64,000 bases of DNA, from the NCBI GenBank assembly GCA_016779225.1, contig JADHNZ010000013.1, positions 1 through 64,000 on the forward strand, read 5' to 3'. The position numbers and the translations under genes were made by a program. Below are positions 2,762 to 22,519 of this stretch, in pieces. Each line of letters begins with the position of its first letter. Positions within the stretch are counted from its first letter, which is position 1. The notes beneath the pieces were generated by a model, which made no database searches, was not told where the DNA came from, and saw nothing but the letters and a program-made list of their open reading frames with translations. The DNA is from Planctomycetota bacterium (GTDB lineage: Bacteria; Planctomycetota; UBA1135; GCA-002686595).

Positions 2762-2957
2762 CCGGGGAGGATAGGCCTCCGCGCTGGTCGGGAGGTTCCC
2801 GCTGCGAGAGCCCTTGCAGTTCCCTTGCACGCTCCCACGAGGGCGCCCCCGCGCGCTGCGAGGGAGGGGCGTGACCGGCCGAGGGAGGCCAGGGGTCTCG
2901 GCGAGGCGCGGCGCGGCACGCTGCGGGCGCGCTCGGTGCGCCACGACCGTGGGAGGA

Positions 2958-3497: not shown

Positions 3498-3520
3498 GGG
3501 TGATGGGGGCTCGCGCTGCG

Positions 3521-4207
3521 TCAGGGGGTTCGGGTCTCGAGCTGTGCCGCCACCCATCGACGGCGGTTCATGGCCGGCTCGAACGAGGCCTCGAGGTCGA
3601 GGCAGCGTGAGTAGTGGCGCGCCGCCGCCGTGAGGTCGTCCTGCCCCTCGGCGATGAGGCCACGGTGGTACTCGTTGCGCCACGAGGGGCCGCCCCGCAG
3701 GGCATCGGCCCGGTCGAGGGCGGCACTGGCCTCGCTGAGTCGCTCCTCCACGAACAGCACGGCGGCCTGAGCCTCGTGGAGCTCGGGGCGATCCGGGCGC
3801 AGGCGCAGCGCCGCATCGATCCTGCGGTGGGCCCCCGCCAGGTCGCCGGTCCTCGCCGAGATTCGAGTCGCGATCAGCAGGGCATCCACGTGGTCGGGCT
3901 GGGCGGCCAGGACCCTCTGGACGAGGGACGCGGCTCGCTCGGTGCGGCCGGTCTCCAGGGACAGCGCGGCGTCCGCCACCAGGACGGGGATCGCGTCGGG
4001 ACTCTCGAGGCTGAGCGCTCGCACCGCCTTGGAGAGTTCCTGGGTGCTCGTCGGTGAGGTCTCCAGGAGGTGTTGGAGCCTCTCCTCGGGGCTCTCGGGA
4101 CCGGAGGTCGGAGTCGCTGCGCAGCCGCTCAGGCCGAGAGCGAGGAGAGCGGCGACAGCGGGCAGGCGCCGGCGGCGCTGCGGATCTTGGAGGCTCGAGG
4201 AGGTCAT
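3521..4207 (-). CDS. TPR lipoprotein, TadD-like
   Basis: A 228-aa protein with a lipoprotein signal: the basic N-terminus RRRR is followed by a hydrophobic stretch ending LSGC, with Cys29 as the predicted lipidated residue. The remainder is alpha-helical tetratricopeptide repeats (for example the segments around AERAASLVQRVLAAQPDHVDA and the region ending in LDLEASFEPA). It starts inside the tadC stop codon (ATGA overlap at 4204-4207), so it is translationally coupled to the pilus operon. In Tad systems a TPR lipoprotein (TadD) is needed for secretin or pilus assembly in the outer membrane. Position and architecture support that role; sequence similarity to a specific TadD was not tested. Confidence 0.75.
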   Translation of the reverse strand: MTSSSLQDPQRRRRLPAVAALLALGLSGCAATPTSGPESPEERLQHLLETSPTSTQELSKAVRALSLESPDAIPVLVADAALSLETGRTERAASLVQRVLAAQPDHVDALLIATRISARTGDLAGAHRRIDAALRLRPDRPELHEAQAAVLFVEERLSEASAALDRADALRGGPSWRNEYHRGLIAEGQDDLTAAARHYSRCLDLEASFEPAMNRRRWVAAQLETRTP

Positions 4208-5175
4208 GGTTGGGCGGGGCCGACGGTCTCGGTCAGGCGGAGGAACGCGGCGACGGCAGGACCGAAGGTCCAGACGAACACGCCGGGGAGGAAGCAGATC
4301 ACGAGAGGGAAGGCCAGCTTGGTCGGCAGCACCTGAGCTCGCTGGATCGCGCTCTCCCGGCGCTGCGACCAGAGGTCCGTCGCTTGGGAGCGGAGCGTGA
4401 CTCCGATGCTGGCTCCCTGGTTCTCCGCGTGGATCAGGGCGGAGCTGAAGCTCGTCATTGAGGGGACGTCGAGGCGGCCGGCCATGGCACGGATGGCCGT
4501 CGCACGGTCCACGCCAGCCATGGTGGCTGCGCGGACGCGCTCGAACTCGAGGGTCAGGGCCCGGTCCTGTCCAAGCGCGCTCCCGACCTTGATGAGGGCT
4601 GCATCGAAGCCCAGTCCCGCCTCGACGAGGGTCGCGAGCAGCTCCAGCACGGTGGGGAGGTCGCGCTCGATCTCCTCGTTCCGCTGTCGTTGCCGTCGGC
4701 GCACGCTCACGATCGGGATCGCCGCGATCAAGAGGGCGATCAGCCACGACGAGGCCTTCATGATCGGGAGCAGGGCCTCGCCGAGTCCCGCGGGGACCTC
4801 CTCGAGCCAGGCGGCGCCGACCTCCGCGTAGCCCGAGGCCTCGACCAGGAGGGCGATGAACGCGGCAGCGAGCACCGCGGCCACGGAGCGTAGGAGGAAC
4901 TGGGTCCTCGCGCCCGGCCCATCGTGCCCGGCGCGCGCCAGCCAGCGCTCGATGCCGGACTCTTCGAGGTCCAGCGGGTCGGCAGGCGTCGCGGGCGCGG
5001 CCGCCGGGTCCAGACCCCGCTCCTCGCGGAACAGGATCGCCCTCACGCGACGCTTGCGGCTGGCGCCCTGCAGGAGCGCCAAGGTGCTGAGCCCGAGCAC
5101 CGCGCCTGCGAGCGCGAGTGCACCCGGCCTGCTCAGGTCGTCGAGCGACAGCGTGAGGAGGGGAGGCGTCGCCAT
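4204..5175 (-). CDS. tadC: Tad pilus inner-membrane platform protein TadC
   Basis: A 323-aa type II secretion system F-domain protein. One N-terminal membrane segment is followed by a helical cytoplasmic region and two further segments (around SWLIALLIAAIPIVS and the C-terminal LAFPLVICFLPGVFVWTFGPAVAAF). The conserved core EIERDLPTVLELLATLVEAG and the sequence VPSMTSFSSALIHAENQG are typical of TadC. It sits 2 bp downstream of tadB and overlaps the TPR lipoprotein gene by 4 bp. The start at 5175 is preferred over upstream in-frame codons because it begins right after the tadB stop. Together with TadB it forms the inner-membrane platform that couples TadA ATPase work to Flp pilin extraction. 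Confidence 0.92.
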   Translation of the reverse strand: MATPPLLTLSLDDLSRPGALALAGAVLGLSTLALLQGASRKRRVRAILFREERGLDPAAAPATPADPLDLEESGIERWLARAGHDGPGARTQFLLRSVAAVLAAAFIALLVEASGYAEVGAAWLEEVPAGLGEALLPIMKASSWLIALLIAAIPIVSVRRRQRQRNEEIERDLPTVLELLATLVEAGLGFDAALIKVGSALGQDRALTLEFERVRAATMAGVDRATAIRAMAGRLDVPSMTSFSSALIHAENQGASIGVTLRSQATDLWSQRRESAIQRAQVLPTKLAFPLVICFLPGVFVWTFGPAVAAFLRLTETVGPAQP

Positions 5176-5177
5176 GG

Positions 5178-6005
5178 TCAGACCTCCGCGCGCGTCATGC
5201 GCTGGACCCAGGCGAGGCCGATCGCCTGGAGGACGATCGAGAGACCAATGAGGCCCGAGCCGGCCTCCGAGGCGGCGAAGCCCTCCACCCGCTCGGGGTA
5301 CTGCTGCCACATGAGGAACGCGAGGCCATAGGTGATGGCCACGATCCCGACGATGGATGCCTGCGTCTCGATCGCCTGGGAGGCCGTTCGTCGGACGACG
5401 TCGGCGCGGTCACGGATCGAGCGCGAGACGTTGCTCAGGGACGAGGCTGCACTTCCCCCGCTGTCGAAGTGCGAGGTCAGGGCGAAGGCGAAGAGGCGGA
5501 CGCCTTCCTGGGGATGCCGGCGTGCGAGGTCGCCGAGCACGGAGTGGGCCGACTCGCCGAGCCGCACGCGTTCGGCGAGCTCCTTGAGGATCCCGGCTGC
5601 AGGTCCTCGGGTCTCGGCGGCGGCGGTCGAGATGCTCTCCACCAGCGCGGCGCCAGCGCGGAGGGAGGCCACGACCAGGTCCACTGCCGCGGCGACCGAG
5701 AGCTCCAGGGCGAGGTCCCTGCGGCTCGAGAGGATGCCGAGAGCCACGTGGGTGACGACACCGACCAGCACGCCGATCGCCCCGGCCTGCAGGGCGGCGA
5801 GGCCCGTGACCGCCAATGCCAGCGCGCACAGCGAGCCCGTTACCAGGGCCCACACGAGAGCACCGTTGCCACGGCCACCGGTCCGGATCCCCGCATCGGG
5901 GTCAGGCCCCGCGAACGCTGCTCTCTCCTCCTTCCTCGGAAGGAGTGCACCGACGAAGCCGGCGATGAGGACGCCGAGGGTCGCGATGAGGAGGAGGTCC
6001 AGCAT
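5178..6005 (-). CDS. tadB: Tad pilus inner-membrane platform protein TadB
   Basis: A 275-aa T2SSF-domain protein. Two hydrophobic segments lie at the N-terminus (LLLIATLGVLIAGFVGALL and ALVTGSLCALALAVTGLAAL), followed by the cytoplasmic F domain with the region LSVAAAVDLVVASLRAGAAL and a C-terminal pair of helices (SIVGIVAITYGLAFLMW; GLIGLSIVLQAIGLAW). It is shorter than many TadB proteins, which exceed 300 aa, but complete. It lies between tadA and tadC in the usual order, with 19 bp to tadA and 2 bp to tadC. Its partner is TadC in the platform. Confidence 0.88.
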   Translation of the reverse strand: MLDLLLIATLGVLIAGFVGALLPRKEERAAFAGPDPDAGIRTGGRGNGALVWALVTGSLCALALAVTGLAALQAGAIGVLVGVVTHVALGILSSRRDLALELSVAAAVDLVVASLRAGAALVESISTAAAETRGPAAGILKELAERVRLGESAHSVLGDLARRHPQEGVRLFAFALTSHFDSGGSAASSLSNVSRSIRDRADVVRRTASQAIETQASIVGIVAITYGLAFLMWQQYPERVEGFAASEAGSGLIGLSIVLQAIGLAWVQRMTRAEV

Positions 6006-6024
6006 GGCTCGGGGAGGGACGGCC

Positions 6025-7422
6025 CTACGACTGCTCCGGCATGCGGAAGAGCTCGAGCGGGAGATCGACTCCCATCGAGCGCTCGTCCTGGACGAAGCGC
6101 GGGACGATCCCGGTGGGCTCGAAGCGCCCCTCGATCCGGTGGCGGCTGGTCGAGGTGGTGCGGAAGACGAAGATGTCCTGCAGCAGGGGCGTGCCGGACT
6201 CCAGGCCAGTCACCTCGGAGACCGCGGCGATCCTCCGGATCCCGTCCTCGTAGCGCCGCACATGGACCACGAGGTCCAGGGCCGACGTGATCTGCTCGCG
6301 AATCGCCTGCGACGGGAGATCGGCGCCGGCCATGAGCACCATGGTCTCGAGGCGTGCCAGCGCATCGCGCGTCGAGTTCGCGTGGACCGTGCACAGGCCA
6401 CCCTCGTGGCCCGTGTTCATGGCCTGCAGCATGTCCAGGGCCTCCCCTGCACGCACCTCGCCCACGATGATCCTCGAGGGCCTCATCCTGAGGCTGTTGA
6501 TCATCAGGTCGCGGGCGGACACGTGCCCCTGCCCCTCGGCGTTCGCAGGCCGGGTCTCGAGACGAACGACGTGCTCCTGGTCGAGGATGAGCTCCGCCGT
6601 GTCCTCGATGGTGACGATGCGCTCGTCCTCAGGGATCGCCTCCGCGAGGATCCCCAGGAGCGTCGACTTGCCCGCGCCCGTGCCTCCAGAGAGCAGGATG
6701 TTCCGCTTCCCCCGGACGGCTGCCGAGAGGACGTGCCACATCGCGCTGTCCAGCATGTTCAGGCGGAGGACGTCGACCGAGCGGAGCCGGTTGCGACCGA
6801 ACCTGCGGATCGAGAGCGTCGGCCCATCGATGCTCACCGGGGGCAGCGTCGCATTGACACGACTCCCATCCGGTAGGCGAAGGTCGACCATGGGCGAGGC
6901 CTGGTCGATCCGGCGTCCGACGTTCATGGCCAGCCGCTCGATAAGCCGTCGCAGGTGGCGGTCGTCCGCGAAGCGGATGTCGACACGCTCGAGGCGGCCG
7001 AAGCGCTCGACGTACACCTGGTCGTGACCGTTCACCAGGATGTCCGTGATGGCGGGGTCGGCCAAGAGCGGTCCGAGGGGGCCGAGCCCCGTGGCCTCCT
7101 CGGCCAGCTCGAGGCCAAGCCGGCTGCGCTCGGCCTCGTTCAGCGGAAGGTCCTCGGTGGCCAGGACGTTGGCGACCCAGTCCTGGACGGCTGCCTCGAG
7201 TGCCTCGGGCTCGCCCCCGAGCAGCCCCTCCTCCTGGAGGTCCGCGATGACCCTGGCGTGCAGTTCGGCCTTGAGGTCGACGAACTGCGAGGCCGCAACG
7301 GGTGCCGCCAGTTCACCCGTGCCCTTGGTGGAGTGCACACCCGCATCGGTCCGACGGACCGGCGCACTCGCCGGTCGTCGAGCGAAGAGTGAGCGAACGG
7401 CTCGCGCGTCGTCCTGCGTCAC
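6025..7422 (-). CDS. tadA: Tad pilus assembly ATPase TadA/CpaF
   Basis: A 465-aa secretion ATPase that powers Flp pilus assembly on the cytoplasmic face of the membrane. The Walker A box GGTGAGKST is clear, preceded by the CpaF-type region ILVNGHDQVYVERFGRLERV and followed by TIEDTAEL (Asp box) and RMRPSRIIVGEVRAGEALDML (Walker B region), then the His box TGHEGGLCTVHANS. It begins with GTG at 7422, overlapping the end of the tadZ gene by 4 bp (GTGA), which supports this start. Length is as expected for CpaF. Assignment is certain at family level. Confidence 0.96.
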   Translation of the reverse strand: MTQDDARAVRSLFARRPASAPVRRTDAGVHSTKGTGELAAPVAASQFVDLKAELHARVIADLQEEGLLGGEPEALEAAVQDWVANVLATEDLPLNEAERSRLGLELAEEATGLGPLGPLLADPAITDILVNGHDQVYVERFGRLERVDIRFADDRHLRRLIERLAMNVGRRIDQASPMVDLRLPDGSRVNATLPPVSIDGPTLSIRRFGRNRLRSVDVLRLNMLDSAMWHVLSAAVRGKRNILLSGGTGAGKSTLLGILAEAIPEDERIVTIEDTAELILDQEHVVRLETRPANAEGQGHVSARDLMINSLRMRPSRIIVGEVRAGEALDMLQAMNTGHEGGLCTVHANSTRDALARLETMVLMAGADLPSQAIREQITSALDLVVHVRRYEDGIRRIAAVSEVTGLESGTPLLQDIFVFRTTSTSRHRIEGRFEPTGIVPRFVQDERSMGVDLPLELFRMPEQS

Positions 7423-8648
7423 GAGCCGACCTCCTCGGAGGTCGCCACTTGCGCTGCGGCTTCGAGGCCCAGGGGCTGGGCGCGCCCATCGAGGGACCCG
7501 GACGCGGGACTGGCGGCGGCGGCGCTGGCCAGGGTGCGGAGGGCCCGTCCCCAGCGCCCGAGCCTCCGGAGGCCGGTCATGGGGGGGGCACCCGTGTTCG
7601 CTGCGGCCAGGACCCGGCCGTAGTAGGGGACCACGTGCTCGATGGTGCGGTCGAGCCGCGTCGCGACGTCCGTTGGATCGATGCCACGGCCAGGGTGCGT
7701 GTTGTTCAGGACGACCTGTGCGCGGGTGCGTTCGACCCCGAGTCGATCGAGGACCCCCAGCAGCTCAGCGGTCCCGTTGATGGTGGGTGCGGAGTTGTTG
7801 AGGACGACGAAGGCACGGTCCGACATGTCCAGGATCGCCAGGGTCACGCTGTCCAGCAGCGGGAACGTGTCGACCACCACGAAGTCGTAGCTGCGGCGCG
7901 CCACCGTGATGACGCGCGACATGACCTGTTCATCGACCGCGGCGGCCTCGATGGCGTCGGCCGGGGCGGGGAGGAGGTCGATGCCGCAGGGGTGGGTCTC
8001 GACGAGGACCGAGAGGAGCTGGCCATCCAGGCGCTCGAGCTGACGCCCGGCATCGGCGAGCGTCGCGCTCGGGCTGAGTCCGAGGAGATCCGCAGCCACC
8101 CCATGCTGGAGCGAGGCGTCCATCAGCAGCGTGCTGCCCCTCCGCGCGAGCTCGACGGCCGTGTTGATGGCGAGGGTCGACTTGCCCACGCCGCCCTTGC
8201 TGCCGACGAACGACACCACCCGGCCAACGCTCTGCTGCACCCTCTGTTGGTCGCCGAACTCTCGTTTGAGGAGTGCCTCCAGCTCGTTGCGTGCCAGCGG
8301 CCGGCTGAGGAAGTCACGCACCCCGGCGCGGAGGAGGCCGACGAAGCGTGACGAGAGGCTCGCGTCGCCGCCGAACTCCTGTGGACGGTAGATGGCGGCG
8401 ACCGCGGGGGCATGCTCCGCATCCCGGAGGTCCTCGGCCAGCTGCACCAGGGCCTCGCCACCCTGCTGGAGCTCGACGAGGATGAGATCGACCCTTCGCT
8501 CGATCGCACGAACGACGGCGCGGCGGGCATCCTCCTCCACGCGGATCGCGAGACGGAAGGGGCCCCCGAGCTCCGCGCCGAGGGAACTGACCTCGGACTC
8601 GAGGCCCGGGTCGCGCGTGAGCAGGATCGTCTGGAGGGTTCGCTGCAC
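7419..8648 (-). CDS. tadZ: Tad pilus localisation ATPase TadZ/CpaE
   Basis: A 409-aa protein with an N-terminal receiver-like domain (about residues 1-130, without an obvious phospho-acceptor pattern) and a C-terminal ParA/MinD-type ATPase domain. The deviant Walker A motif KGGVGKST lies near residue 150, and the Asp-containing strand YDFVVVDTFP matches Walker A-prime/B. TadZ/CpaE places the pilus machine at the pole or at foci. The start is GTG at 8648; 36 bp separate it from the TadG-like gene. The C-terminal 40 residues are Ala/Ser-rich and probably disordered. Gene order directly upstream of tadA is the canonical one. Confidence 0.92.
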   Translation of the reverse strand: MQRTLQTILLTRDPGLESEVSSLGAELGGPFRLAIRVEEDARRAVVRAIERRVDLILVELQQGGEALVQLAEDLRDAEHAPAVAAIYRPQEFGGDASLSSRFVGLLRAGVRDFLSRPLARNELEALLKREFGDQQRVQQSVGRVVSFVGSKGGVGKSTLAINTAVELARRGSTLLMDASLQHGVAADLLGLSPSATLADAGRQLERLDGQLLSVLVETHPCGIDLLPAPADAIEAAAVDEQVMSRVITVARRSYDFVVVDTFPLLDSVTLAILDMSDRAFVVLNNSAPTINGTAELLGVLDRLGVERTRAQVVLNNTHPGRGIDPTDVATRLDRTIEHVVPYYGRVLAAANTGAPPMTGLRRLGRWGRALRTLASAAAASPASGSLDGRAQPLGLEAAAQVATSEEVGS

Positions 8649-8684
8649 GGGTGTGGGGGAGTGATGGAGGGAGGCCGGTGGCGT

Positions 8685-9989
8685 TCAGCGCGCCAGCACT
8701 GGCGCAAGGAGCTGTGGCCCGGCCGGTGGCGGGCTCGCGAAGTCGAGGTCCACCGCGCGCATCCTCTGGGCGCTCGCGTTGGCGGGGGCGATGGTCTGAC
8801 CGAGCTTCGTCCCGGTCAGCTGGAGCGTCGGGCCAGCCTCGATCGCGGCCGCCGTGATCTCGAGCGCGACGAAGCCTCGAACGCGCAGGCCTGCGGTGGC
8901 TGGATCGACCGCATGCACCGCGGCGAACACGATTCCATCGAGCTCGACCGAGGGCGAGGATGGGAGGCTGACGGGGGCGCTGGTCAGCAGCCCGCCAAGG
9001 GCCTGGGAGCCACCGACTGCCTGGCCATCGAAGCTGCCGCTGATCGTACCGCTCGCATCGAGGCTCACGCTGAACGCCCCGCCGGCCGGCAGTGCGGACC
9101 AGGAACCTTCCTCGACCGACATCCAGCGAACGGAGCCATCGGAGGCGTCCGTGGCGAGCGGTGCGAGGCCGGGGAGCCCGGGCCGGGCGAGTCCCACGAT
9201 CATCGCGCGGCGAGCGTCCGCGATCGCCGTCGCGCGCACGGTGATCCCGTCCCGCCGCGGATCGTAGGTCCCGGGATCGCTGGCGCTGAGCGCGGACCCG
9301 AGGCCGAACAGGAACGGGAGGGTCGGGGCGGCCGTGCTCTCTCCAGGAACACGATCGAGTGGGGCATCAACACGCGTCCTGCGCAGCCGGGCGAGGAAGG
9401 CGGTCCCCTGGGGGTCGGTCGTGAAGTCCGCCCTCGCGTAGTTCGACGCCTCCACGTGCCAGTCCACACGCCCAGGATTCGCCGGATCGAGGGCCGTGAA
9501 CGTCCCCGCAACGAGATCGCCGCTCGCCGCGTTCGCCAGGACGTTCGTTGCCGGGGACGGGATCCAGGGACCCGACGACGTCAACACCCCACCTGCAGGG
9601 TCATCGACGCCACCAACGCCGGTCTCCAGGATCGGTCCCGCACCCAGCGCGAACCGCTGGTTGGCCGTCGCTGGATCGAGGTCCTCGTCGAACACGAGGG
9701 TCGCGAGCAGGGAGGCCGCCTCGCGGCGCGCTGCGTCCGAGGCACCCGTATCGTCGACGACGGCATCACGCCCCGCGAGGCCCTCCAGTGCGGCCACGTC
9801 GGCACTGGCCTGCATCTGCTGCTGGGTCAGACGGGCGATCCCCAGATCCGCGATCACTGCGAAGAGGCCGAAGGTCGCGACGAGGAACAGCGCGAAGAAC
9901 ACGAGGACGACGCCGCGACGCTCGCGCGCGGCGCGCACCAGCGGCCGACGGTGGCCACGAACGCCAACGGTCCCCGGACGGTGCCGCAT
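8685..9989 (-). CDS. TadG-like pseudopilin/anchor protein
   Basis: A 434-aa protein with an N-terminal basic stretch followed by one transmembrane segment (GVVLVFFALFLVATFGLFAVIADLGI) and the TQQQMQASADVAALEGL motif that is typical of TadG/TadE-type proteins. The large remainder (about 370 aa) is predicted extracytoplasmic and Gly/Ala/Thr-rich with no Cys. It resembles the Tad-locus proteins that carry a putative TadG/Flp-like N-terminus and anchor or tip the pilus. It lies 5 bp downstream of cpaB. The assignment rests on N-terminal pattern and locus position; the C-terminal domain is not recognised. Confidence 0.82.
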   Translation of the reverse strand: MRHRPGTVGVRGHRRPLVRAARERRGVVLVFFALFLVATFGLFAVIADLGIARLTQQQMQASADVAALEGLAGRDAVVDDTGASDAARREAASLLATLVFDEDLDPATANQRFALGAGPILETGVGGVDDPAGGVLTSSGPWIPSPATNVLANAASGDLVAGTFTALDPANPGRVDWHVEASNYARADFTTDPQGTAFLARLRRTRVDAPLDRVPGESTAAPTLPFLFGLGSALSASDPGTYDPRRDGITVRATAIADARRAMIVGLARPGLPGLAPLATDASDGSVRWMSVEEGSWSALPAGGAFSVSLDASGTISGSFDGQAVGGSQALGGLLTSAPVSLPSSPSVELDGIVFAAVHAVDPATAGLRVRGFVALEITAAAIEAGPTLQLTGTKLGQTIAPANASAQRMRAVDLDFASPPPAGPQLLAPVLAR

Positions 9990-9994
9990 CGTCC

Positions 9995-11023
9995 TCAGCG
10001 ATCCTCGCCCTGCTGCGCCCGGGGCACCGCGGTGAAGGTCCGCTCGTCCCCGGCCATCGTCTCGATGATGGAGTAGCCGGTGCCTTCGTACCCGGAGGGC
10101 GTCAGTGCATCACCCCCGCCCACGGAGGTCTCACTCAGGCCAGGCGTGAGGCTTGCTTCGGGGTCGTCGGGATGCCCCGACCGCGCGACGCACGTGAGGC
10201 CGGACTCGAGCTCCAGTGCCGCCATGAGCGGTGCCACCTCCTCGGGGTCCAGGGCGATGACCATCTCCTGGACGGGCCGGGTCCTCGTGATCCCGCCGGC
10301 CGTGAGGCTCGTGGTGTAGGTGGGGATCATGCGGGTCTCGACCCCCGAGATCACGACGCCGCCCTGGACCACGACGTCGACGCGAGCCGTGGCACGTGCC
10401 CTCTGACTCGAGAAGCTCCCGCTGCGGTCACCGATCAGGCGCTGCGTGTCCACCGGCTTGAACGAACGTGCCGCCAGCAGGTCGAAGCGATCCCCCGGCT
10501 TGAGGCCGATGATCCCCTGGACCAGTTCGGTCTCGACGCGGATCGCACGCTTGCCCGGAGGGATCCCCCCGGCCAGCCCAGGGCGGGTGCCCTCCGGCAG
10601 GAAGTTCTTCTCGGTGAACGGGAAGCCTGGTGCCTTGGGACGAGCCATCACCCTCCCGACGATCGGCTCCGTCCCGACCAGGATGCCGTTGGTCTCGACG
10701 AACTCCGGATCGAGGTCGATGAACGCGAAGCGTGACCGCCGAGCGTCGAACAGATCGTCGCGGGTCACGCGTGCGTAGGCGGGGATCTCGCGCGCCGAGA
10801 TCATGACCCGGACCATGCCCTCCCTCGGGCCTGAGATCTCGTTGACCGGGTTCCCGGACTCAGCGGCCACCTCCGTGACCGGACCGAACAGACCGAAGGG
10901 CCCCCGAAGCTCCTGATCGGTCAGCCGCAGGTACAGGACCCAGGCCACGCACGAGATCAGGATCGCGAGGACCAGGAGGGGACTAACGGGGCGGCGTCGA
11001 GTTCTGCGAGGGGCAACTGCCAT
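9995..11023 (-). CDS. cpaB: Flp pilus assembly protein CpaB/RcpC
   Basis: A 342-aa periplasmic protein with one N-terminal membrane anchor (SPLLVLAILISCVAWVLYL). An SAF-like beta-clip domain follows (MVRVMISAREIPAYARVTRDD region), then an RcpC/CpaB core (KRAIRVETELVQGIIGLKPGD) that in other Tad systems works with the secretin in the periplasm. The tail (last 60 aa) is low complexity. It lies between the TadE-like and TadG-like genes, an unusual position since cpaB is often next to the secretin gene. Start ATG 11023 is well placed, 21 bp after the TadE-like stop. Confidence 0.9.
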   Translation of the reverse strand: MAVAPRRTRRRPVSPLLVLAILISCVAWVLYLRLTDQELRGPFGLFGPVTEVAAESGNPVNEISGPREGMVRVMISAREIPAYARVTRDDLFDARRSRFAFIDLDPEFVETNGILVGTEPIVGRVMARPKAPGFPFTEKNFLPEGTRPGLAGGIPPGKRAIRVETELVQGIIGLKPGDRFDLLAARSFKPVDTQRLIGDRSGSFSSQRARATARVDVVVQGGVVISGVETRMIPTYTTSLTAGGITRTRPVQEMVIALDPEEVAPLMAALELESGLTCVARSGHPDDPEASLTPGLSETSVGGGDALTPSGYEGTGYSIIETMAGDERTFTAVPRAQQGEDR

Positions 11024-11044
11024 TCGGTTGAGGGGCCGAGGGAT

Positions 11045-11914
11045 CTAGAGGGCGACTTCGCGCCGGAAGAGGGACTGAGCGGCGATGAGGCGCCGGAAGG
11101 GACGAACGGAGAGACCGAGCGCCTCGAGGCGCCCCAGCCCGAGCGATCCCGCGTACGGGCCCGCTCCACCCGGGCCGGGCCCGACGATCGAGATGTCGCC
11201 CCCCAGCCCGGTATTGGCCTCGATGGGGAGGTTCGTTCCGAGATCGGGCGGCAGGAACGCGGTGAAGGCGGCCGACTGGAAGGGGACGTTGAGACGCACC
11301 CCGGCGATCCCGCTCGTGGTGTCACTGCTCGAGAAGGCGAACTTGCCCGGCAGCCCCGGCGCGCCGATCTCCTCGAGGACCGGCGCCAACTCGAACGAGG
11401 TCTCCTCGCCCGTGGAGGGATCGCGCTCGAGGATGCGAGGGACCAAGACGCTCAGTCCGGTCGGACTCGTGGCGGAGGCCACGATGGCGCCAGGCATGTG
11501 GAGCAGCCGACGCTGGCCATCCGGCGTCTGCACGTCGGAGGTGATCATGAGGGGACGCAGGGAGCGATTGACCACGGGGAGCGCTGCGAACCAGGCCTCG
11601 AGGTCGGGTCCCGGCGGGTTCGCCACGATGTCCACGACCGTGTGGTCCGGGTCGTACACCGCGCTGCGGAAGCCCGGGTCCGCCAGGGCGTCCGCGAACG
11701 TGTACTCCGCAGGGAGCGGGTAGAGAGCGAGCTCGCGCGCCGCGAAGCGGGCAGCGTCCTGGGCGGACTGCTGGACGGCCATCCAGCGACCGATGGATAT
11801 CATCCCCGCGACGACGAGGTAGAGGGCGAGCGAGATCAGGGCGAACTCGACGGCGACGCCTCCCTGCCTGGCGGTCTTCCCCGTCACCCACGCGTGCTTC
11901 ACGGGCCTGTTCAT
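11045..11914 (-). CDS. TadE-like pilus protein
   Basis: A 289-aa protein with the classic TadE N-terminus: GGVAVEFALISLALYLVVAG, a single membrane segment starting after a Gly and carrying a Glu at position +5, followed by QQSAQDAARFAARELALYP. TadE/TadF are minor pseudopilins processed by the Tad prepilin peptidase. The extracytoplasmic part is longer than the usual 150-200 aa of TadE. The start at 11914 overlaps the cpaA stop by 4 bp (ATGA), which decides it against the longer upstream frame. The neighbour upstream is the predicted processing peptidase, consistent with the role. Confidence 0.88.
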   Translation of the reverse strand: MNRPVKHAWVTGKTARQGGVAVEFALISLALYLVVAGMISIGRWMAVQQSAQDAARFAARELALYPLPAEYTFADALADPGFRSAVYDPDHTVVDIVANPPGPDLEAWFAALPVVNRSLRPLMITSDVQTPDGQRRLLHMPGAIVASATSPTGLSVLVPRILERDPSTGEETSFELAPVLEEIGAPGLPGKFAFSSSDTTSGIAGVRLNVPFQSAAFTAFLPPDLGTNLPIEANTGLGGDISIVGPGPGGAGPYAGSLGLGRLEALGLSVRPFRRLIAAQSLFRREVAL

Positions 11915-12321
11915 CCGGCGAGCGTCATGGGGATGAAGGCCAGGAGCCCGAGGAGCATCGCCGGCGCGTAGGCCATCTCGCGCTCGCCGCGGCCTCTGAG
12001 AGCCAGGGCCAAGACGCCACCCGCGACCGCACATGCGGCGCAGAACACCAGGAAGGGCTGCAGGCCCAGGGTCAGGCCGAGCGCCATCATCAGCTTGGTG
12101 TCCCCGCCCCCGAACCAACCCCTGCGGAAGAGGGGGAGGGTGATGCACGAGGCGGCCACCAGGCCGAGAACGGCCTGTGACCATCCGAGCGGATGGTGAC
12201 CCAGGGCGGTCAGGGCGCCGGCGGCGAGGAAGAGCACGCCAGGGATGGCGTTCGGGATCGTCCTCGTGCGCAGGTCCGTGACCACGGCACAGCAGGTCGC
12301 AAGGAGCGCGAGGGTGTACAT
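11911..12321 (-). CDS. cpaA: Prepilin peptidase CpaA/TadV (A24)
   Basis: A 136-aa integral membrane aspartic peptidase that cleaves Flp prepilin and the TadE/TadG-type pseudopilins after Gly. Both catalytic aspartates are visible: Asp in VTDLRTRTIPN near the N-terminus and Asp in FGGGDTK about residue 73. Four to five hydrophobic segments span the length. A TTG at 12327 would add two residues, but ATG 12321 is preferred. No strong ribosome binding site is seen. It is shorter than the bifunctional PilD-type enzymes and lacks their methylase domain, as is normal for Tad loci. Confidence 0.92.
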   Translation of the reverse strand: MYTLALLATCCAVVTDLRTRTIPNAIPGVLFLAAGALTALGHHPLGWSQAVLGLVAASCITLPLFRRGWFGGGDTKLMMALGLTLGLQPFLVFCAACAVAGGVLALALRGRGEREMAYAPAMLLGLLAFIPMTLAG

Positions 12322-12384
12322 CAGCAAGGAGGGATCCCCCAGCCCGATGGGCTGAGGGACCCCGCTCCGGCTACTCGGAATCCG

Positions 12385-12528
12385 CTACTCCGCCTCGAGG
12401 ACGAGACCGGACAGGTCGTAGCCCAGGTTGTTGCCCAGGCGGGGCGTGTCCGAGTTCGTCGCGATGGCCGCCAGGAGGGCGTACTCCAGGAGAGCAGCGC
12501 CCTTCTCGTTGCGGAGCAGCGAGCGCAT
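12385..12528 (-). CDS. Miniature Flp-type pilin (47 aa)
   Basis: A short gene that starts one base inside the stop of the full-size pilin (TGATG at 12526-12530). The product keeps the Flp processing region NEKGAALLEYALLAA, with predicted cleavage after Gly10 and Glu/Tyr at mature positions 5 and 6, and a C-terminal end NNLGYDLSGLVLEAE that closely matches the C-terminus of the upstream pilin. The roughly 62 residues between these two blocks in the full pilin are missing, so the predicted mature peptide is only 37 aa. It looks like a tandem duplicate with an in-frame internal deletion. Both conserved blocks are intact and the frame is open, so a functional mini-pilin or a minor subunit is possible; a decaying copy cannot be ruled out. 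Confidence 0.72.
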   Translation of the reverse strand: MRSLLRNEKGAALLEYALLAAIATNSDTPRLGNNLGYDLSGLVLEAE

Positions 12529-12857
12529 CACTGGGCCTCGAGGACGAGGCCAGTGACGTCGACGCCGAGGTTGTTGCTCAGGCGGGAGGTGTCGGTCCCG
12601 GTTGCGATGGCGGCGGTGTCGACGGAGATCTGGCCGGTGTCGGCACCGGTCGTCTCGATGATCTTGCCGCTCACGATGGGGCCGTTGTCGTCGGTGTGGG
12701 CGCCCGGCATGATCGTCGCGACCGAGCTGATCATGTCGTTGGTCTTGTGACCGAAGATGGAGACGCCGGCGGCGGACATCAGGGAGACGCCAGCGGCGAG
12801 GAGGCTGTACTCGAGGAGGGCGGCGCCCTTTTGGTTGCGGATGAGGTTCTTGAACAT
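12528..12857 (-). CDS. flp: Flp-family major pilin
   Basis: A 109-aa type IVb pilin. The leader MFKNLIRNQKG is followed by AALLEYSLLAAGVSLMSAAG; cleavage is expected after Gly11, giving Glu5 and Tyr6 of the mature pilin, the Flp hallmark. After the hydrophobic helix comes a variable region and the C-terminus NNLGVDVTGLVLEAQ. It is larger than typical Flp pilins (50-80 aa). ATG 12857 is chosen because the leader then has the normal short basic form; the longer upstream frame adds non-pilin sequence. The gene lies 80 bp downstream of the secretin gene and is translationally linked to the mini-pilin. Confidence 0.93.
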   Translation of the reverse strand: MFKNLIRNQKGAALLEYSLLAAGVSLMSAAGVSIFGHKTNDMISSVATIMPGAHTDDNGPIVSGKIIETTGADTGQISVDTAAIATGTDTSRLSNNLGVDVTGLVLEAQ

Positions 12858-12937
12858 GGCTGAAAAGGTTTCGAAGTGAAGAGCCGCCGCTGCGCCGGAC
12901 CCACCGTGGGTCGTGCCGCAGCGACGGTGGTCGTCGC

Positions 12938-14923
12938 TCATCGGGAGCGAGGGCGCGTGGTGGGGGCGTCTGGTGAACGGACGGCCTCGAGGCAGCGAGT
13001 CAGCACCTCATTGGTCGTGGGGAAGGCCCAGAGCTCGGCGTTCGGCCGCGGCTCGCGGACCACCGAGGGACGCACCACGATCACCAGCTCTCGCTCCTCG
13101 GAGTCCGCGGCGTCGTTCCGGAAGAGCCACTGGAGGACGGGGAGGGAGCCGAGGACGGGCGTCCGCGCCTCGGCGCTCTGGCTGCGTGCGCTGGAGAGGC
13201 CACCGATGACCAGCGCGTCGCCGTCGAACACGCGCGCCGACGTGCGGGTCGCCCGGGACTCGAAGGCCGTGGCGCCGCTGGACTGACCCGTCGCGCTCCC
13301 GATCGCTGCCGTGAGGGCGAGGTCCGGGTTCGAGATCCGGGGGGTGACGTCGAGCGTGATCCGACTCGAGCTTCGCTCCTCGACCAGCGGGCGGACGAGG
13401 AGGTCGATCCCGTAGTCGCGGAACTCAATGCTGTTCAGCACCTGGTCCGTCCCGCCCCCGACGGTCCGCGCGATGGGCACGGGGATCTGTCCGCCGACCT
13501 GGAACTGGGCGACCTCCCCGGAGAGCACGGCCAGGGAGGGGTTGGAGATGCTGCGCGCGACCTCGGCCTCCACCAGCAGCTGGAACAGGCTGTCCACGGC
13601 GAGGCCGCCCGAGACCGCCTGCCCGCCCCCGGAGAGCGTTCCGTTCAGGAAGCCGAGCAGCCCCTGGACGTCCCCGTCCCCGACGGACGGGGCGCTGCCG
13701 CCCTGCAGGTCCCGGGAGATCCGCGACGGGAGCAGCGAAGGCTGATCGAAGCTCGCGACGGCGAGGCCGAGCTGGCTCCGCCACGTCCGCAGCCTGCTGG
13801 AGTCCACCTCGTAGAGCCGGACGTCCACGCGGACCAGGGGGAGGTGCTCCACCTGGATCGTCGAGAGGATGCGACCGCCGGCTGCCTCAACGACCTTCGC
13901 GCGGCCGACCTGGGAACCGATGCGGTTGGCGACCTGCTGCTGGGTCTGTCCCGACCCCCCGCCCCCGAGGGCCTGGTTCCCCGTCGTCCTGAGCCCCTGC
14001 TGCTGGCCTCCGGCTCCACCGACGGAGCCCGCTCCGAGGATGTTGCGAGCCTGGGTGAGGGCTCCGGCCTCGTCCGTCAGGGCGCGCACCTCGTTACTCC
14101 CCCGGGCCCCACCGATGGTGCGGGAGGCGAGGTACAGAGCGCGCGTCAGGGTGACCTGGTCGGGCACGGTGCCCGAGAGGTGGAAGACGTCCTGCTCGTC
14201 GTCCGGCTGGAGGCCGGACTGGATGCGCCTGACGTCGATGGCCGAGTCGGTGAAACCGTCGAGGGCCCCCAGGATCCTCGTCTCGAGCGGTGCCGGCAGG
14301 GTCCGCACTCGGAGGAGGTTGACCACGGCGCCCTGGCTCGGCCGCTCGAGATCGATGGGGGCCTCGGTGATGGCGGTCGGGCCACTCCCCTCCGAGCCCT
14401 CGCCGAGCAGCGGGGTGGGGGTGCGAGCTCCGAGGAAGGCCTCGACCGCGGTCTGGGCGGTCTCGCGCAGGGTGAGGGTCTCGACCGTTCCGGTCAGCAC
14501 CACGAAGTCGCGGTCCGCGGCGAACTCGAGCTCGATGGCCGGATCGATCGAGGCGAGCAGCTCACGCAGGAGGCTCAGGTCCCGCCCGACGGTGACGAGC
14601 TGCTGGAGAGGATCCCCAGTCGCGAACCAGATCGTCAGGGACGTGACGCCGGGCGCGATGCCGGACAGCAGGACCTCGCGATCGTCCAGCACGTCCGACC
14701 GCAGCACGTCCGGGTCGGCGACCGAGACGCGCCGCACGGGGGTCTCGAAGGTCAGGCGCTCGCTACGACCGACGAGGAGTCCGCGCTCCGTGACCTGCGC
14801 GGCAGCATGGCCGAGGATCGTCACCAGGAGGGCGCAGAGGAGTGCGGTCCGGGCGACCCGGCTCGCGAGCGATCCATCCTCGCGGCGCAGGTGCGCATCG
14901 GTCTTCGGCTCGCGGTTCTGCAT
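12938..14923 (-). CDS. cpaC: Tad pilus secretin CpaC/RcpA
   Basis: A 661-aa outer-membrane secretin forming the channel for the Flp pilus. A signal peptide (ALLCALLVTILGHAAAQ) is followed by the type II/III-specific N domain (GLLVGRSERLTFETPVRRVSV) and a long Gly/Gln-rich linker around residues 320-360, then the secretin domain with the VEHLPLVRVDVRLYEVD, EVARSISNPSLAVLSGEVAQF and VGGQIPVPI blocks and the C-terminal beta region ending in TPVLGSLPVLQWLFR. The start at 14923 fits the signal peptide; the frame is open further upstream but reads as non-coding. It is the first gene of the Tad operon, with a palindrome just upstream. Confidence 0.93.
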   Translation of the reverse strand: MQNREPKTDAHLRREDGSLASRVARTALLCALLVTILGHAAAQVTERGLLVGRSERLTFETPVRRVSVADPDVLRSDVLDDREVLLSGIAPGVTSLTIWFATGDPLQQLVTVGRDLSLLRELLASIDPAIELEFAADRDFVVLTGTVETLTLRETAQTAVEAFLGARTPTPLLGEGSEGSGPTAITEAPIDLERPSQGAVVNLLRVRTLPAPLETRILGALDGFTDSAIDVRRIQSGLQPDDEQDVFHLSGTVPDQVTLTRALYLASRTIGGARGSNEVRALTDEAGALTQARNILGAGSVGGAGGQQQGLRTTGNQALGGGGSGQTQQQVANRIGSQVGRAKVVEAAGGRILSTIQVEHLPLVRVDVRLYEVDSSRLRTWRSQLGLAVASFDQPSLLPSRISRDLQGGSAPSVGDGDVQGLLGFLNGTLSGGGQAVSGGLAVDSLFQLLVEAEVARSISNPSLAVLSGEVAQFQVGGQIPVPIARTVGGGTDQVLNSIEFRDYGIDLLVRPLVEERSSSRITLDVTPRISNPDLALTAAIGSATGQSSGATAFESRATRTSARVFDGDALVIGGLSSARSQSAEARTPVLGSLPVLQWLFRNDAADSEERELVIVVRPSVVREPRPNAELWAFPTTNEVLTRCLEAVRSPDAPTTRPRSR

Positions 14924-15265
14924 GGGCTGGCACTGGCGCTTAGCGCAAGTGGCTTGCAACAATAGGGCAGAGCCGATTTCCAAGGATGTGCAACCGTGAC
15001 GCGAGCCTCGCCCTGCAGCGATCCCACAGTCGGGCTCGTGGACGTCGCTCGTCGTCCGTCCTAATGCACGGGTCGCGCCATGGGTCCACTCGATGTCCCG
15101 ACGGTTGTGCAATCGACGGGCTGCGGCGAGGTCCACAATCCGCCCCCCGCTGGTTCCGGGCGGGAGGGAGCTGGTCCAGCAGCCACCGGACCTCGCACGG
15201 CGACCGACCCTGCGAGGTCGAGGAACGCCTGGCAGGTCGCAGCACCGCAGCCCACTGAGTCCACC
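14924..15265. other. Divergent intergenic region, Tad operon / arsR
   Basis: This 342-bp stretch separates the minus-strand secretin from the plus-strand arsR gene. It should hold the promoters of both. It contains the palindrome at 14931-14951 and otherwise no gene I can support. A frame on the minus strand is open across it, but its residues look like chance coding of GC-rich DNA. Confidence 0.6.
14931..14951. promoter_or_regulatory. Palindrome 7 bp upstream of the secretin start
   Basis: The arm CACTGGCGCT (14931-14940), one spacer base, then AGCGCAAGTG (14942-14951) match in 9 of 10 positions as inverted repeats. It sits only 7 bp upstream of the cpaC ATG on the minus strand. It could be an operator or a 5-prime untranslated hairpin occluding the ribosome site. 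No regulator is identified; the adjacent ArsR is one candidate but the half-sites do not resemble known SmtB operators. Confidence 0.4.
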
Positions 15266-15628
15266 ATGTTCTCCCCCGACGATCCCCCTGCCGTGGATGG
15301 GCTCGAGTGCTCTCCCAGTGAGCACGCGCCTCGCCCCTACGTCGAGCCCTCAGCGCGGGCCTTTCGCGGAGCGGTCTCCCTGTTCAAGGCGCTGTCCGAC
15401 GAGCAGCGCCTGCGGACCCTCGAGTTCCTGAGCCAGGGCGAGGCCTGCGCCAGTGAGATCGCAGCGCAGTTCGATGAGCCCCTCTCGACGGTGTCGCACC
15501 GCATGAAGCTGCTCGAGCAGGCGGGGCTCGTGTCCCGTCGACGAGACGGGCGACACGTGCACTTCAGCCTGCTCGATCACCACGTCTTGAACATGGTGCG
15601 GGACGCCCTCGATCACGCGGTCGAGTAG
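15266..15628 (+). CDS. ArsR/SmtB-family metal-sensing repressor
   Basis: A 120-aa winged-helix regulator. The recognition helix region is [18 protein letters not shown]. The C-terminal helix carries Asp104, His106, His117 and Glu120, the same residues at the same numbers as the alpha-5 zinc site of cyanobacterial SmtB; Cys61 with Glu64 and the N-terminal Cys15/His20 suggest a second alpha-3N-type site. Such proteins release DNA on binding zinc. ATG 15266 gives an SmtB-sized protein; an upstream open frame is discarded. It is followed after 148 bp by a COG0523 GTPase gene, which supports a zinc role. Dimeric, cytoplasmic. The metal is inferred from ligands, not tested. Confidence 0.88.
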
Positions 15629-15685
15629 CCGGCCGGGCCGTGGGCCGGGCAGGAGCCGTGGGGGACCGCCCCCTGGGCCCGGCAA

Positions 15686-15730
15686 GGGTGTTCAAGCATC
15701 GAACCCCTTACACCCGCGAGCCGGTAGACT
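15686..15730 (+). promoter_or_regulatory. Putative operator and promoter of the CobW gene
   Basis: An imperfect inverted repeat, GGTGTTC (15687-15693) and GAACCCC (15701-15707) with 7 bp between, pairs in 6 of 7 positions. It lies directly upstream of a -10-like TAGACT at 15725-15730, so a bound repressor would cover the -35 region. The half-sites (GTTC / GAAC) recall the TGAAC-type cores of SmtB-family operators. The call is inference from symmetry and position. Confidence 0.4.
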
Positions 15731-15776
15731 CCTGGACTGCGCACCGTCCTCACGAATCGATCCTCACCGCAGGGCC

Positions 15777-17036
15777 ATGAACTCGACCGACCCGACCCAG
15801 CAGCAGCAATCTCGCCTCCCCGTGACCGTTCTGTCCGGCTTCCTGGGAGCGGGCAAGACGACCCTCCTCAACCAGGTCCTCAACAATCGCGAGGGCCGCA
15901 AGGTCGCCGTGATCGTCAACGACATGAGCGAGGTCAACATCGATGCCGCGCTCGTGGAGCGTGGCGGCGCCGAGCTCTCGCGAACCGAGGAGAAGCTCGT
16001 CGAGATGTCCAACGGCTGCATCTGCTGCACCCTCAGGGACGACCTGCTCGCCGAGGTCGCGCGTCTCGCTGAGGAGGGGCGGTTCGACTACCTCCTCATC
16101 GAGTCGACGGGGATCTCCGAGCCGATCCCCGTGGCGCAGACGTTCACCTTCGAGGACGAGAACGGCGTCAGTCTGGGGGACGTCGCCCGTCTCGACACGA
16201 TGGTCACCGTGGTCGACGCAGCGAGCTTCGTCCGCGACTACTACAAGGCCGACGACCTCCGGGAGCGGGGGCAGGCCTTGGACGAGGACGACGACCGGAC
16301 GGTCACCGACCTGCTCATCGACCAGGTCGAGTTCGCGGACGTCATCGTCCTCAACAAGATCGATCTCGTCAGCGAGGCCGAGGCAGGGGAGGTCGAGGCC
16401 GTCCTCGCGGCCTTGAACCCTGGAGCGCGCATCGTGCGTGCGACGCGAGGTCAGGTCCCCCTCGAGCACGTCCTCGAGACGGGGCTGTTCGACTACGAGC
16501 GTGCGGAGAACTCGGCGGGCTGGATCCGTGAGCTCGAGGGGGAGCACACGCCCGAGACGGAGGAGTACGGCATCTCCAGCTTCACCTACCGCAACCCCCG
16601 GCCGTTCGATGCGGTCAAGCTGCGTGAGTTCGTGCACGACGAGGACGTCTGGCGCGGGGTCCTCCGCTCGAAGGGGTTCTTCTGGGTCGCGGCGGCCGAT
16701 CACGTCGCTTACGAGTTGGCCCAGGCGGGCGGCGTCAATGGGATCAGCCCGGCGGGGACCTGGTGGGCCTCGGTCCCGAGGGAGGACTGGGGGCAACCGG
16801 AAGGGGAGCGTCCCGACCAGCAGTCGCGTTGGCATCCCGTCTATGGGGATCGCGCTCAGACCATCGTGTTCATCGGTCAGCAGCTGGACGAGGCCGGGAT
16901 CCGGGCACGTCTCGACGCCTGCCTCCTGGACGTGGCCGTGGCCGAGGCGGGGCCCGAGGCCTGGCAGGGCCTGCCGAACCCCTTCCCCTGTCCCGAGTTG
17001 GAGCCCGAGCCCGAGCTCGACTCGGTGACGTCCTGA
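15777..17036 (+). CDS. COG0523 GTPase, CobW/ZigA-type metallochaperone
   Basis: A 419-aa G3E-family GTPase. The Walker [10 protein letters not shown] (residues 21-29), the metal-binding CxCC motif (Cys81, Cys83, Cys84), the switch region [11 protein letters not shown] and the guanine-specificity motif NKIDL are all present, followed by a C-terminal CobW domain ([11 protein letters not shown] region). COG0523 proteins deliver metal ions, often zinc under starvation, to client enzymes. Length is in the range of ZigA/YciC-type members. It is 148 bp downstream of the SmtB-type regulator on the same strand with a possible operator between. Zinc specificity follows from context and family, not from residues that define it uniquely. 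Confidence 0.9.
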
Positions 17037-17232
17037 TCGCGTCGGCGGGGAACCACTCGTGACCAGGTCGCCACCACGGGGTCGGTGACCTCCCGGTGGA
17101 GCGAGCGGGGCCCTCGGACCAATGGCTCCCCACGGGCACCCGTTCGCAACAGGGTCAAGCTCGCAACGGGACCGCGAGGGGTCGTCCGCGTTGTGCGGAG
17201 CGTGGGGATGCCCCACGATCGGTGTCCGTCCC

Positions 17233-18543
17233 ATGTTCGTCCCGACCCTCGTCCTCTCGGCCCCGCTCCTCGCGCCCCTCCAGGGGCCGTCCCAGACCGG
17301 CCTGACCCTTCGCCCACGTCGGCCCAACATCGTCCTCGTGCTCGCCGACGACTTCGGCGTGGACCTCGTCGGGGCGTACGGCGAGGGGACGGACCCTCCC
17401 TGCACGCCGACGCTCGACGGTCTCGCTCAAGAGGGCCTCCTGTTCCGGAACGCGTGGACGAACCCGGTCTGCACGCCCAGCCGCGCCGCGACCCTGACGG
17501 GGCGTCACGGCTTCCGAACGGGCGTGGGCAGCGTGGGCCAGGGGTCCGAGCTCCCCCTGGTCCAGACGATCGTGCCGGAGGCGCTCCCCGACTACGCAAG
17601 CAGCGCCGTCGGGAAGTGGCACCTCGCTCGCGGCAGCAGCGAGCCGCAGGACCATCCCAACGACAGCGGCTTCCAGCACTACGCCGGCGGACTGGGTGGA
17701 GGTGTGGGCGACTACTTCTCGTGGACGAAGGTGGTCGACGGGCAGAGCTCCGTCTCGACGACCTACGCGACCACCGACACGGCCGATGAGGCCATCGCCG
17801 CCGTGCTGGCGATGCCGGAACCCTGGTTCCTGTACGTGGCGTTCAACTCCCCGCACGCTCCGTTCCACGTCCCGCCGGCCTCCGTCTGCGCGCTGCCCGC
17901 CTGCGGCAGCAGCTGGTGCGGGAACCTCCCCAACAACCCCTCGAACCGTGACCGGGGCAAGGCGATGGTCGAGGCCATGGATGCCGAGCTGGGTCGTGTC
18001 CTCGAGGTCGTGGACGCCCTCGACCCGGACGCCTTCGTGTTCTTCATGGGGGACAACGGCACGGCCGGCCAGCTCTCGGAGGCGCCCTTCGCGAACGATC
18101 ACGCCAAGGGCACCGTCTACGAGGGTGGCGTCAACGTACCGCTGATGGTCCGCGGTCCCGGAGTCGTGCAGGGGGAGTGCGCAGGACTCGTGTCCAGCGT
18201 CGACCTCTTCACGACGTTCACCGACCTCGCGGGCTTCCCGGCCGTGACCGAGGACTCGCGCTCGCTCGTGCCGTACTTCCGCAACCCGGGGCTCTCGCTG
18301 AGGCAGTTCGTCTACTCGGAGCGCTTCTCGCCGAATGGCGGCGCGCCGCCCTTCACGGATCACCGCAGGGCGGTCCGCGGGGCGCGCTACAAGCTCCTGC
18401 GGCAGACCGGTCAGCCCGACGAGCTCTACGACCTGCTCGTCGATCCGTTCGAGACCGCGAACCTCCTCCCGAGCCCGACCCCCGATCAGCAGGCCGCCTA
18501 CGTCGAGCTGATCGCGGAGCTCGTGCGCCTCGGGGTGGACTGA
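17233..18543 (+). CDS. Secreted sulfatase (S1 family, FGly type)
   Basis: A 436-aa arylsulfatase-type enzyme that removes sulfate esters outside the cytoplasm. The start at 17233 gives a short signal peptide (MFVPTLVLSAPLLAPLQG); upstream in-frame codons do not. The metal site ADDFG (residues 38-42) and the formylglycine motif CTPSRAATLTG with Cys80 are intact, followed by GKWHLA and the DNGTAG metal site. Shorter than many sulfatases (450-550 aa). It includes an unusual Cys-rich loop CALPACGSSWC in the middle, possibly two disulfides. It ends 4 bp from the convergent nitronate monooxygenase gene. Substrate unknown. Confidence 0.9.
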   Translation: MFVPTLVLSAPLLAPLQGPSQTGLTLRPRRPNIVLVLADDFGVDLVGAYGEGTDPPCTPTLDGLAQEGLLFRNAWTNPVCTPSRAATLTGRHGFRTGVGSVGQGSELPLVQTIVPEALPDYASSAVGKWHLARGSSEPQDHPNDSGFQHYAGGLGGGVGDYFSWTKVVDGQSSVSTTYATTDTADEAIAAVLAMPEPWFLYVAFNSPHAPFHVPPASVCALPACGSSWCGNLPNNPSNRDRGKAMVEAMDAELGRVLEVVDALDPDAFVFFMGDNGTAGQLSEAPFANDHAKGTVYEGGVNVPLMVRGPGVVQGECAGLVSSVDLFTTFTDLAGFPAVTEDSRSLVPYFRNPGLSLRQFVYSERFSPNGGAPPFTDHRRAVRGARYKLLRQTGQPDELYDLLVDPFETANLLPSPTPDQQAAYVELIAELVRLGVD

Positions 18544-18547
18544 GCGC

Positions 18548-19531
18548 TCAGGCGATCGGCGCTCGCGCGCCGAGGCGTTCGCTGATAGCCTCCACCTGCC
18601 CGCGTGCGGTGGCCATGAGCTCGTCCATGAGGGCCGCCACGGTGGGGAGCTCGCGGACGAGGCCCACCCCCGAGCCCGAGGGGAGGATGCCCTCCTCGAT
18701 GCTGCCCTCGACGCACCCGAGGCGGGCGCGGTCGATCCCGCGCGCGGCGCGCAGGTCCTCGGCGCTCGCGCCCTCGCGGGCGAGCTCGACCATGTGCTGC
18801 ACGGCCGGGGTCGCGAGCCCGCGGCTGATCTTGCCCTCGGGGCCATAGAGGACCGCGTCCTCCGAGCCCGCGGCCACGAGGCTCTGCTTGAACGCGGCGT
18901 GGGCCTCGCACTCCTGGGTAGCGACGAAGCGCGTCCCGAGCTGGACGGCGCTCGCGCCGAGGGCGAGCGCCGCGGCGACCCCACGGCCGTCCGTGATCCC
19001 GCCCGCGGCCACGACCGGGATCGGCACGGCGTCCACGACCTGGGGAACCAAGGACAGGGTCGCGAGACCATGGGGACGCACGTGGCCCCCGGCCTCGTTG
19101 CTCTCGGCCACGACGAAGTCCACGCCGGCGGCGTGCGACTTCTGCGCGAGGCGCGCGGAGGGCACGACGTGGCCGACCAGCAGCCCCGCCTCCTTGAAGG
19201 TCGAGGTCCACTTGGCCGGAGACCCGGCCCCCGTGATCACGACCGGCGGACGCTCTGCGAGGATGACGTGCGCCAGCTCCTCGACCCGGTCCGCACCATC
19301 CGCGCGCAGGAGGATCAGGGGCAGGTTGACGGCGAAGGGGCGCTCGGTCCGCTGCCGGACCGCGTGGATGTGCCGTCGCAGCTCGCGTGGGTCCATGGTG
19401 GCCGCACCGAGGACGCCGAGGCCACCCGCCTGGCTGACGGCCGAGGCCAGGCGACTTCCACTGACCCAGGCCATGCCGCCCTGGACGATCGGGACGGAGA
19501 GGCCCAGGGTGCTGGTCAGGTCGGTGAGCAT
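18548..19531 (-). CDS. Nitronate monooxygenase / FabK-like FMN enzyme
   Basis: A 327-aa TIM-barrel flavoprotein of the 2-nitropropane dioxygenase family. Recognisable blocks are PIVQGGMAWVSG at the N-terminus, ESNEAGGHVRPHG (FMN phosphate/active-site loop) and PVVAAGGITDGRGVAAALALGASAVQLGTRF. Members oxidise alkyl nitronates or act as enoyl-ACP reductase II (FabK); the sequence alone does not separate these. ATG 19531 has a GAGAGGA-like ribosome binding site. It is a single gene, convergent with the sulfatase and divergent from the orphan module at 19645. Confidence 0.85.
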   Translation of the reverse strand: MLTDLTSTLGLSVPIVQGGMAWVSGSRLASAVSQAGGLGVLGAATMDPRELRRHIHAVRQRTERPFAVNLPLILLRADGADRVEELAHVILAERPPVVITGAGSPAKWTSTFKEAGLLVGHVVPSARLAQKSHAAGVDFVVAESNEAGGHVRPHGLATLSLVPQVVDAVPIPVVAAGGITDGRGVAAALALGASAVQLGTRFVATQECEAHAAFKQSLVAAGSEDAVLYGPEGKISRGLATPAVQHMVELAREGASAEDLRAARGIDRARLGCVEGSIEEGILPSGSGVGLVRELPTVAALMDELMATARGQVEAISERLGARAPIA

Positions 19532-19644
19532 GGGGAGGTCCTCTCGGTCAGAATCCACGATCCTATGGCGTCACTGCGATCCGTGGGGATCGGATCGGCA
19601 GAACGCGGAGTCCCACCGACACCGACCCCAGCACGTGGGGAGGC

Positions 19645-22443: not shown

Positions 22444-22519
<76 letters not shown>

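Follow-up and report, generated by a model that had tools for sequence, protein, structure and literature searches.

Organization of the pilin locus

In the 64,000-nucleotide stretch of DNA analysed here (the window), the gene of an Flp-type major pilin is followed directly by a second, very short frame, and the question raised by this arrangement is whether the short frame (the mini frame) encodes a working pilus subunit or is what remains of a longer gene. We regard the latter as fairly probable, namely that the mini frame is the remnant of a once functional second full-length pilin which was cut by a recent in-frame slippage deletion and is probably still translated. Both frames belong to a Tad/Flp pilus locus on the minus strand that encodes a secretin, the pilin, the mini frame, a peptidase, TadE, CpaB-like, TadG-like, TadZ-like and TadA proteins and two T2SSF proteins (Table 1). 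The draft of the source genome is 77% complete and comprises 99 contigs. The sole tRNA found in the window (22444-22519) is not located at the edge of the tad island.

Table 1. Features of the pilin region and of the surrounding tad locus (positions in the window)
Feature	Position	Strand	Basis
Full-length Flp-type major pilin, 109 aa	12528..12857	-	Aligned to 32 relatives; Pfam Flp_Fap match of 22.0 bits does not reach the 32.2 cut-off
Mini frame, 47 aa, with the leader, the cleavage block and the C-terminal 26 residues of a second copy of the pilin	12385..12528	-	ORF and homology
TGATG, overlap of pilin stop and mini start	12526..12530	-	Sequence
GAGG, putative ribosome-binding site for the mini frame	12536..12539	-	Inferred from sequence
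15-bp hairpin without T tail, 21 nt past the mini stop	12331..12363	-	Folding, z -3.2 for a 66-nt stretch
Prepilin peptidase (TadV/CpaA type)	11911..12327	-	Peptidase_A24 match
TadE-like minor pilin	11045..11917	-	Domain match
Secretin (RcpA/CpaC type)	12938..15325	-	Listed ORF; real start probably further downstream
Rest of tad locus: CpaB-like, TadG-like, TadZ-like ATPase, TadA ATPase, two T2SSF platform proteins	4204..11023	-	

As the original prediction had described, a 47-aa frame lies behind the full pilin and is linked to it by a TGATG overlap, in which the TGA of the pilin and the ATG of the mini frame have one base in common. The mini frame was observed to be unbroken, with 47 open codons and both start and stop in place, and the GAGG is located 7 nt 5' of its ATG, within the terminal pilin codons. 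Neither a sigma-70 promoter nor a T-tailed terminator was scored in this region. For 16 of the 34 related loci, we folded the 90 nt that follow the lone pilin gene. Nine of them (L039, L041, L042, L045, L048, L055, L056, L057 and L060) have a hairpin at or below -24 kcal/mol, and the other seven, including the nearest relatives (L035-L038 and L040), have weaker hairpins only. The mini frame seems to form part of the pilin message, at a site ahead of the usual hairpin. Since the 15-bp hairpin comes after the mini frame, both frames are probably carried by one pilin message, and the mini product is probably still translated through coupling to the pilin at the overlap. The proposal that both frames are translated from a single message is therefore retained as far as co-transcription and coupling are probable.

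Relationship between the two frames

The similarity between the mini frame and the full pilin is not due to chance because the mini query matched the full copy with E-values of 7e-7 at the C-terminal end and 3e-4 at the N-terminal end. Mini codons 2-21 pair with codons 3-22 of the full gene and mini codons 22-47 with codons 84-109, so that the mini frame aligns to the first 22 and the last 26 codons of the full pilin. Excluding the start Met, 33 of 46 residues are identical, with 15/20 at the N-terminal end and 18/26 at the C-terminal end. The two ends are hence similar, not identical as had been claimed, and the shared C-terminal end comprises about 26-28 residues where 15 had been stated. 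The internal deletion was correctly recognized; it measures 61 codons, and the 62nd of the residues reported as missing from the middle is a single codon absent from the leader. The prepilin block G/AALLEY (the slash marks the cleavage site) is present in both products, which agrees with the predicted retention of this block.

A total of 38 differences were found among the 138 aligned bases, distributed over the first, second and third codon positions as 13, 5 and 20. At some of the differing sites the mini frame has the residues found in related species (EK; DTPRLGNNLG) and the full copy carries derived ones (QK; DTSRLSNNLG); the mini frame is therefore not a cut-down version of the present full gene. 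The earlier observation holds with these corrections: duplication of an Flp gene and an in-frame deletion are supported as the origin of the mini frame, and the deletion would have fallen in a copy other than the full gene present today.

Constraint on the retained codons and the deletion join

Comparison of the mini frame with the full gene (NG86) gave a dN of 0.22, a dS of 0.82 and a dN/dS of 0.27. We observed 13 amino-acid changes, compared with a mean of 23.6 for random placement of these base changes; none of 20,000 placements was as low, and 34.5% of the random placements created a stop. Unique changes are similar in number for the two copies against all seven outgroups used, and at the protein level the distance to the seven relatives is about equal for the mini frame and the full copy. 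The two frames share a GC3 of 94%, compared with 83-90% in eight other tad genes. The low dN/dS, the few amino-acid changes, the outgroup distances and the GC3 together suggest that the kept codons were constrained for most of the time since the duplication. With a dN/dS of 0.27, a dS of 0.8 and a GC3 of 94%, the mini frame is best read as an old, formerly constrained paralogue.

The original prediction had proposed dN/dS as a check on purifying selection, and the pairwise value points to constraint at some period in the past; it gives no date for the loss of the middle. A codon maximum-likelihood comparison run on two trees did not reject neutrality of the mini branch (2dL of 3.5 and 2.9, p about 0.06-0.09); the synonymous sites are saturated and the synonymous branch lengths reached the bound. 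No relaxation was observed either, and the deletion may be too young for relaxed constraint to have become visible. The position of the mini frame in the tree differs among three FastTree runs.

If the present full gene is taken to represent the ancestor of copy 2, a 6-nt microhomology is seen where the deletion was joined. Deletions of 150-230 nt were modelled for comparison, and 1.8% of these 4,245 had a microhomology of at least 5 nt. We infer that a tandem duplication would have placed copy 2 right behind copy 1, ahead of the hairpin, and that this event would be old, the synonymous sites being heavily changed. For most of the time that followed, the protein constraint on copy 2 would have been about equal to that on copy 1, until slippage between two short GCCGC-containing repeats, probably recent, removed 61 codons in frame, including codons 23-49.

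The join also bears on whether the short frame exists in any cell. The genome is metagenome-assembled, and the assembly might have merged strains that have a full second copy with strains that lack it, producing a frame that neither carries; the draft is incomplete and fragmented, and tandem repeats are able to mislead assemblers. We consider such an artefact very improbable: the copies differ at more bases than a simple collapse would explain, a natural microhomology is present at the in-frame join, and the contig agrees with its genus.

Distribution among related genomes

The mini frame was searched over 81 genomes of the family, 154 of the order and 392 of the phylum (overlapping sets which include the source genome), and the window's own genome was the only one with a match across mini positions 1-47. 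In the other genomes of all three sets the mini query matches just one end of a full pilin. A pilin profile found one match per genome in 20 of the 81 family genomes, representing 15 of 42 genera, and scanning the GTDB contigs yielded 34 pilin loci which, by their titles, are mostly from Planctomycetota with some from Nitrospirota and Acidobacteria. No short second pilin was found nearby in these 34 loci or in the 19 other family genomes with a pilin; some loci are identical between the two sets, and L052 offers just 414 nt downstream for inspection. The original prediction had called for a search for the two-gene arrangement in relatives, and no relative with a pilin has the mini frame. It had also named absence from close relatives as a refuting observation, and this outcome counts against its two-size proposal to the extent that relatives carry the locus at all, the sister species having no Tad locus. 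The mini frame is missing from every relative examined, and we therefore rejected the reading of the mini frame as an ordinary conserved second gene.

No pilin was found by the profile search in any of the six other genomes of the genus (78-91% complete), and the secretin has only a 25-27% identical match in five of them and none in the sixth. In the sister species (G003), window stretches 654-2829 (92% identical) and 17268-19691 (96%) are separated by only 172 nt, and the whole tad island (about 2830-17267, about 14 kb) is missing. A separate explanation, that the contig was misbinned from another genus, was rejected on the grounds that its BipA is 94% identical to that of the same congener and that the flanks are collinear.

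Two full-length pilins were found in 2 of the 34 loci (L043 and L066), and these tandem pairs establish that pilin duplication occurs in the group. The two copies in the window are about as diverged as species are, yet the second copy occurs in none of the close outgroup loci. This combination fits badly with every reading and requires either loss of the copy there or another origin of copy 2.

Searches of other collections gave no relative of the pilin and no exact match to the join among viral contigs, no NCBIfam family for either the mini frame or the full pilin and, by sequence in the PDB, no match for the mini frame and a weak one for the pilin family. Nothing on a mini pilin was found in the open-licence papers surveyed, which were judged mostly from listings. 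The full pilin was observed to fall in a well-conserved group of roughly 110-aa Flp-type pilins from Planctomycetota, Nitrospirota and Acidobacteria, and the C-terminal extension of this group carries the motifs FGHKTxD, PGAHADDNGP, RLGNN and LVxE. A 105-aa frame behind the pilin of L086 (minus strand, 659-973) has a weak score and a pilin-like hydrophobic stretch without a prepilin or cleavage motif and was set aside.

Predicted properties of the mini protein

The leader of the mini protein is that of an Flp pilin, with a Gly end, Glu at +5 and Tyr at +6, all three of which are invariant in the aligned pilins, and its location in a tad locus is also that expected of an Flp pilin. Pfam PF04964 does not separate the two products, as both the mini protein (17.8 bits) and the full pilin (22.0 bits) score below the gathering score of 32.2. 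In the model of the full pilin a single helix spans residues 2-49 and the tail is loosely structured (mean pLDDT 75), and in that of the mini protein a helix at residues 2-24 is followed by coil with one short helical turn (mean pLDDT 62, a modest confidence). The deletion takes out residues 23-49, which form most of the pilin helix. The mature mini protein has 37 residues and a calculated mass of 3,833 Da, and its cleavage site is followed by 13 mostly hydrophobic residues (AALLEYALLAAIA) and then TNSD, short of the approximately 21 mostly hydrophobic residues after the Gly that characterize a class III signal peptide. The best 19-residue hydrophobicity mean is 0.85 for the mini protein vs 1.67 for the full pilin.

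In type IV pilins the tract of about 21 residues is described, in the available parts of PMC4471445, as both the membrane anchor and the main assembly interface. The portions of PMC11067988 that we used describe the 45 mature residues of the C. crescentus pilin (PilA, PDB 8u2b) as a single helix packed against six neighbours and placing the Glu/Tyr pair at the core, whereas the mini protein has about 13 hydrophobic helix residues in its mature 37. PilA and the mini protein share the leader, the G/xxxxEY block and the tad locus of the Flp/Tad type IVb pilins (PF04964); 8u2b and the profile of the window-type pilins align weakly (E 0.28). The mini protein retains the core Glu/Tyr pair without the packing surface, and it is probably unable to build fibres. 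Its hydrophobic stretch would be too short for insertion and packing, and the product, translated by coupling, would probably be degraded.

Against a remnant stands the lack of visible decay, as there is no stop and the start, the coupling and the cleavage block are kept. A long-lived mini gene under selection would fit the same sequence data from this one genome. Such a gene would pair the cleavage block, the Glu/Tyr pair and the C-terminal tail in a product that is co-translated with the pilin and serves to initiate or terminate the fibre or to restrain its assembly; we think this unlikely. The original prediction had gone further and suggested that two pilin sizes could give a capping or length-control subunit, which is not supported since no relative has the mini frame and most of the helix is deleted.

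In a more specific form of this idea the mini protein would be cleaved by TadV, sit at the fibre base, the tip or the TadE/TadG junction and cap the fibre or limit its length. The intact frame, start, coupling and cleavage block, the retained Glu and Tyr, the pairwise dN/dS and the probable place in the pilin message all agree with such a role, as do KilK and KilO, small Flp paralogues which the consulted text of PMC12075869 describes as tip adapters in Myxococcus xanthus. We nevertheless rate it as rather improbable, as the hydrophobic tract is well below the usual length (PMC4471445, in the parts available), the packing surface is missing and the frame is private to a single genome. A capping subunit is also expected to be scarce, as the weak transcription of kilK and kilO illustrates, whereas the mini frame lies in the message of the major pilin.

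The mini product might instead act as a decoy that does not itself assemble; by taking up the prepilin peptidase or the assembly platform, or as a small released peptide, it would reduce the number of pili made. Retention of the leader and cleavage block with loss of the packing helix would suit this role, and the decoy would be produced in step with the pilin if coupling works. Its absence from all relatives and a weak membrane anchor, which makes an encounter with the peptidase doubtful, leave the decoy quite implausible to us.

We know of no length-control mechanism for Tad pili. A working mini protein would offer one, and it would also reveal what small part of such a pilin suffices for participation in a Tad fibre. 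On present evidence, the remnant is an instructive case in which a duplicated pilin gene would have been lost in a single in-frame step, leaving a tidy, translatable short gene.

Comparison with known second pilins

Aggregatibacter flp-2 is a second pilin located close to the first. According to the parts of PMC12075869 that were accessible, KilK and KilO resemble the mini protein in being small Flp paralogues encoded next to the major pilin. KilO is wholly helical and similar to KilK, whereas the mini protein is half coil by prediction and thus lacks the fully helical form of such adapter minor pilins; kilK and kilO are weakly transcribed and belong to tip gene clusters, in contrast to the location of the mini frame in the pilin message (PMC12075869, same parts). 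The portions of PMC10934763 that we drew on describe separate clusters and an orphan pilin in S. meliloti and mention no truncated copy.

Within the loci collected here, L043 (Rhodopirellula solitaria) and L066 (Nitrospirales) are like the window in having a second pilin near the first, but their second pilins are full length and separated from the first by over 450 nt. Upstream of each of the two L043 pilins (frames ending at 2684 and 4330), a similar small gene seems to be repeated.
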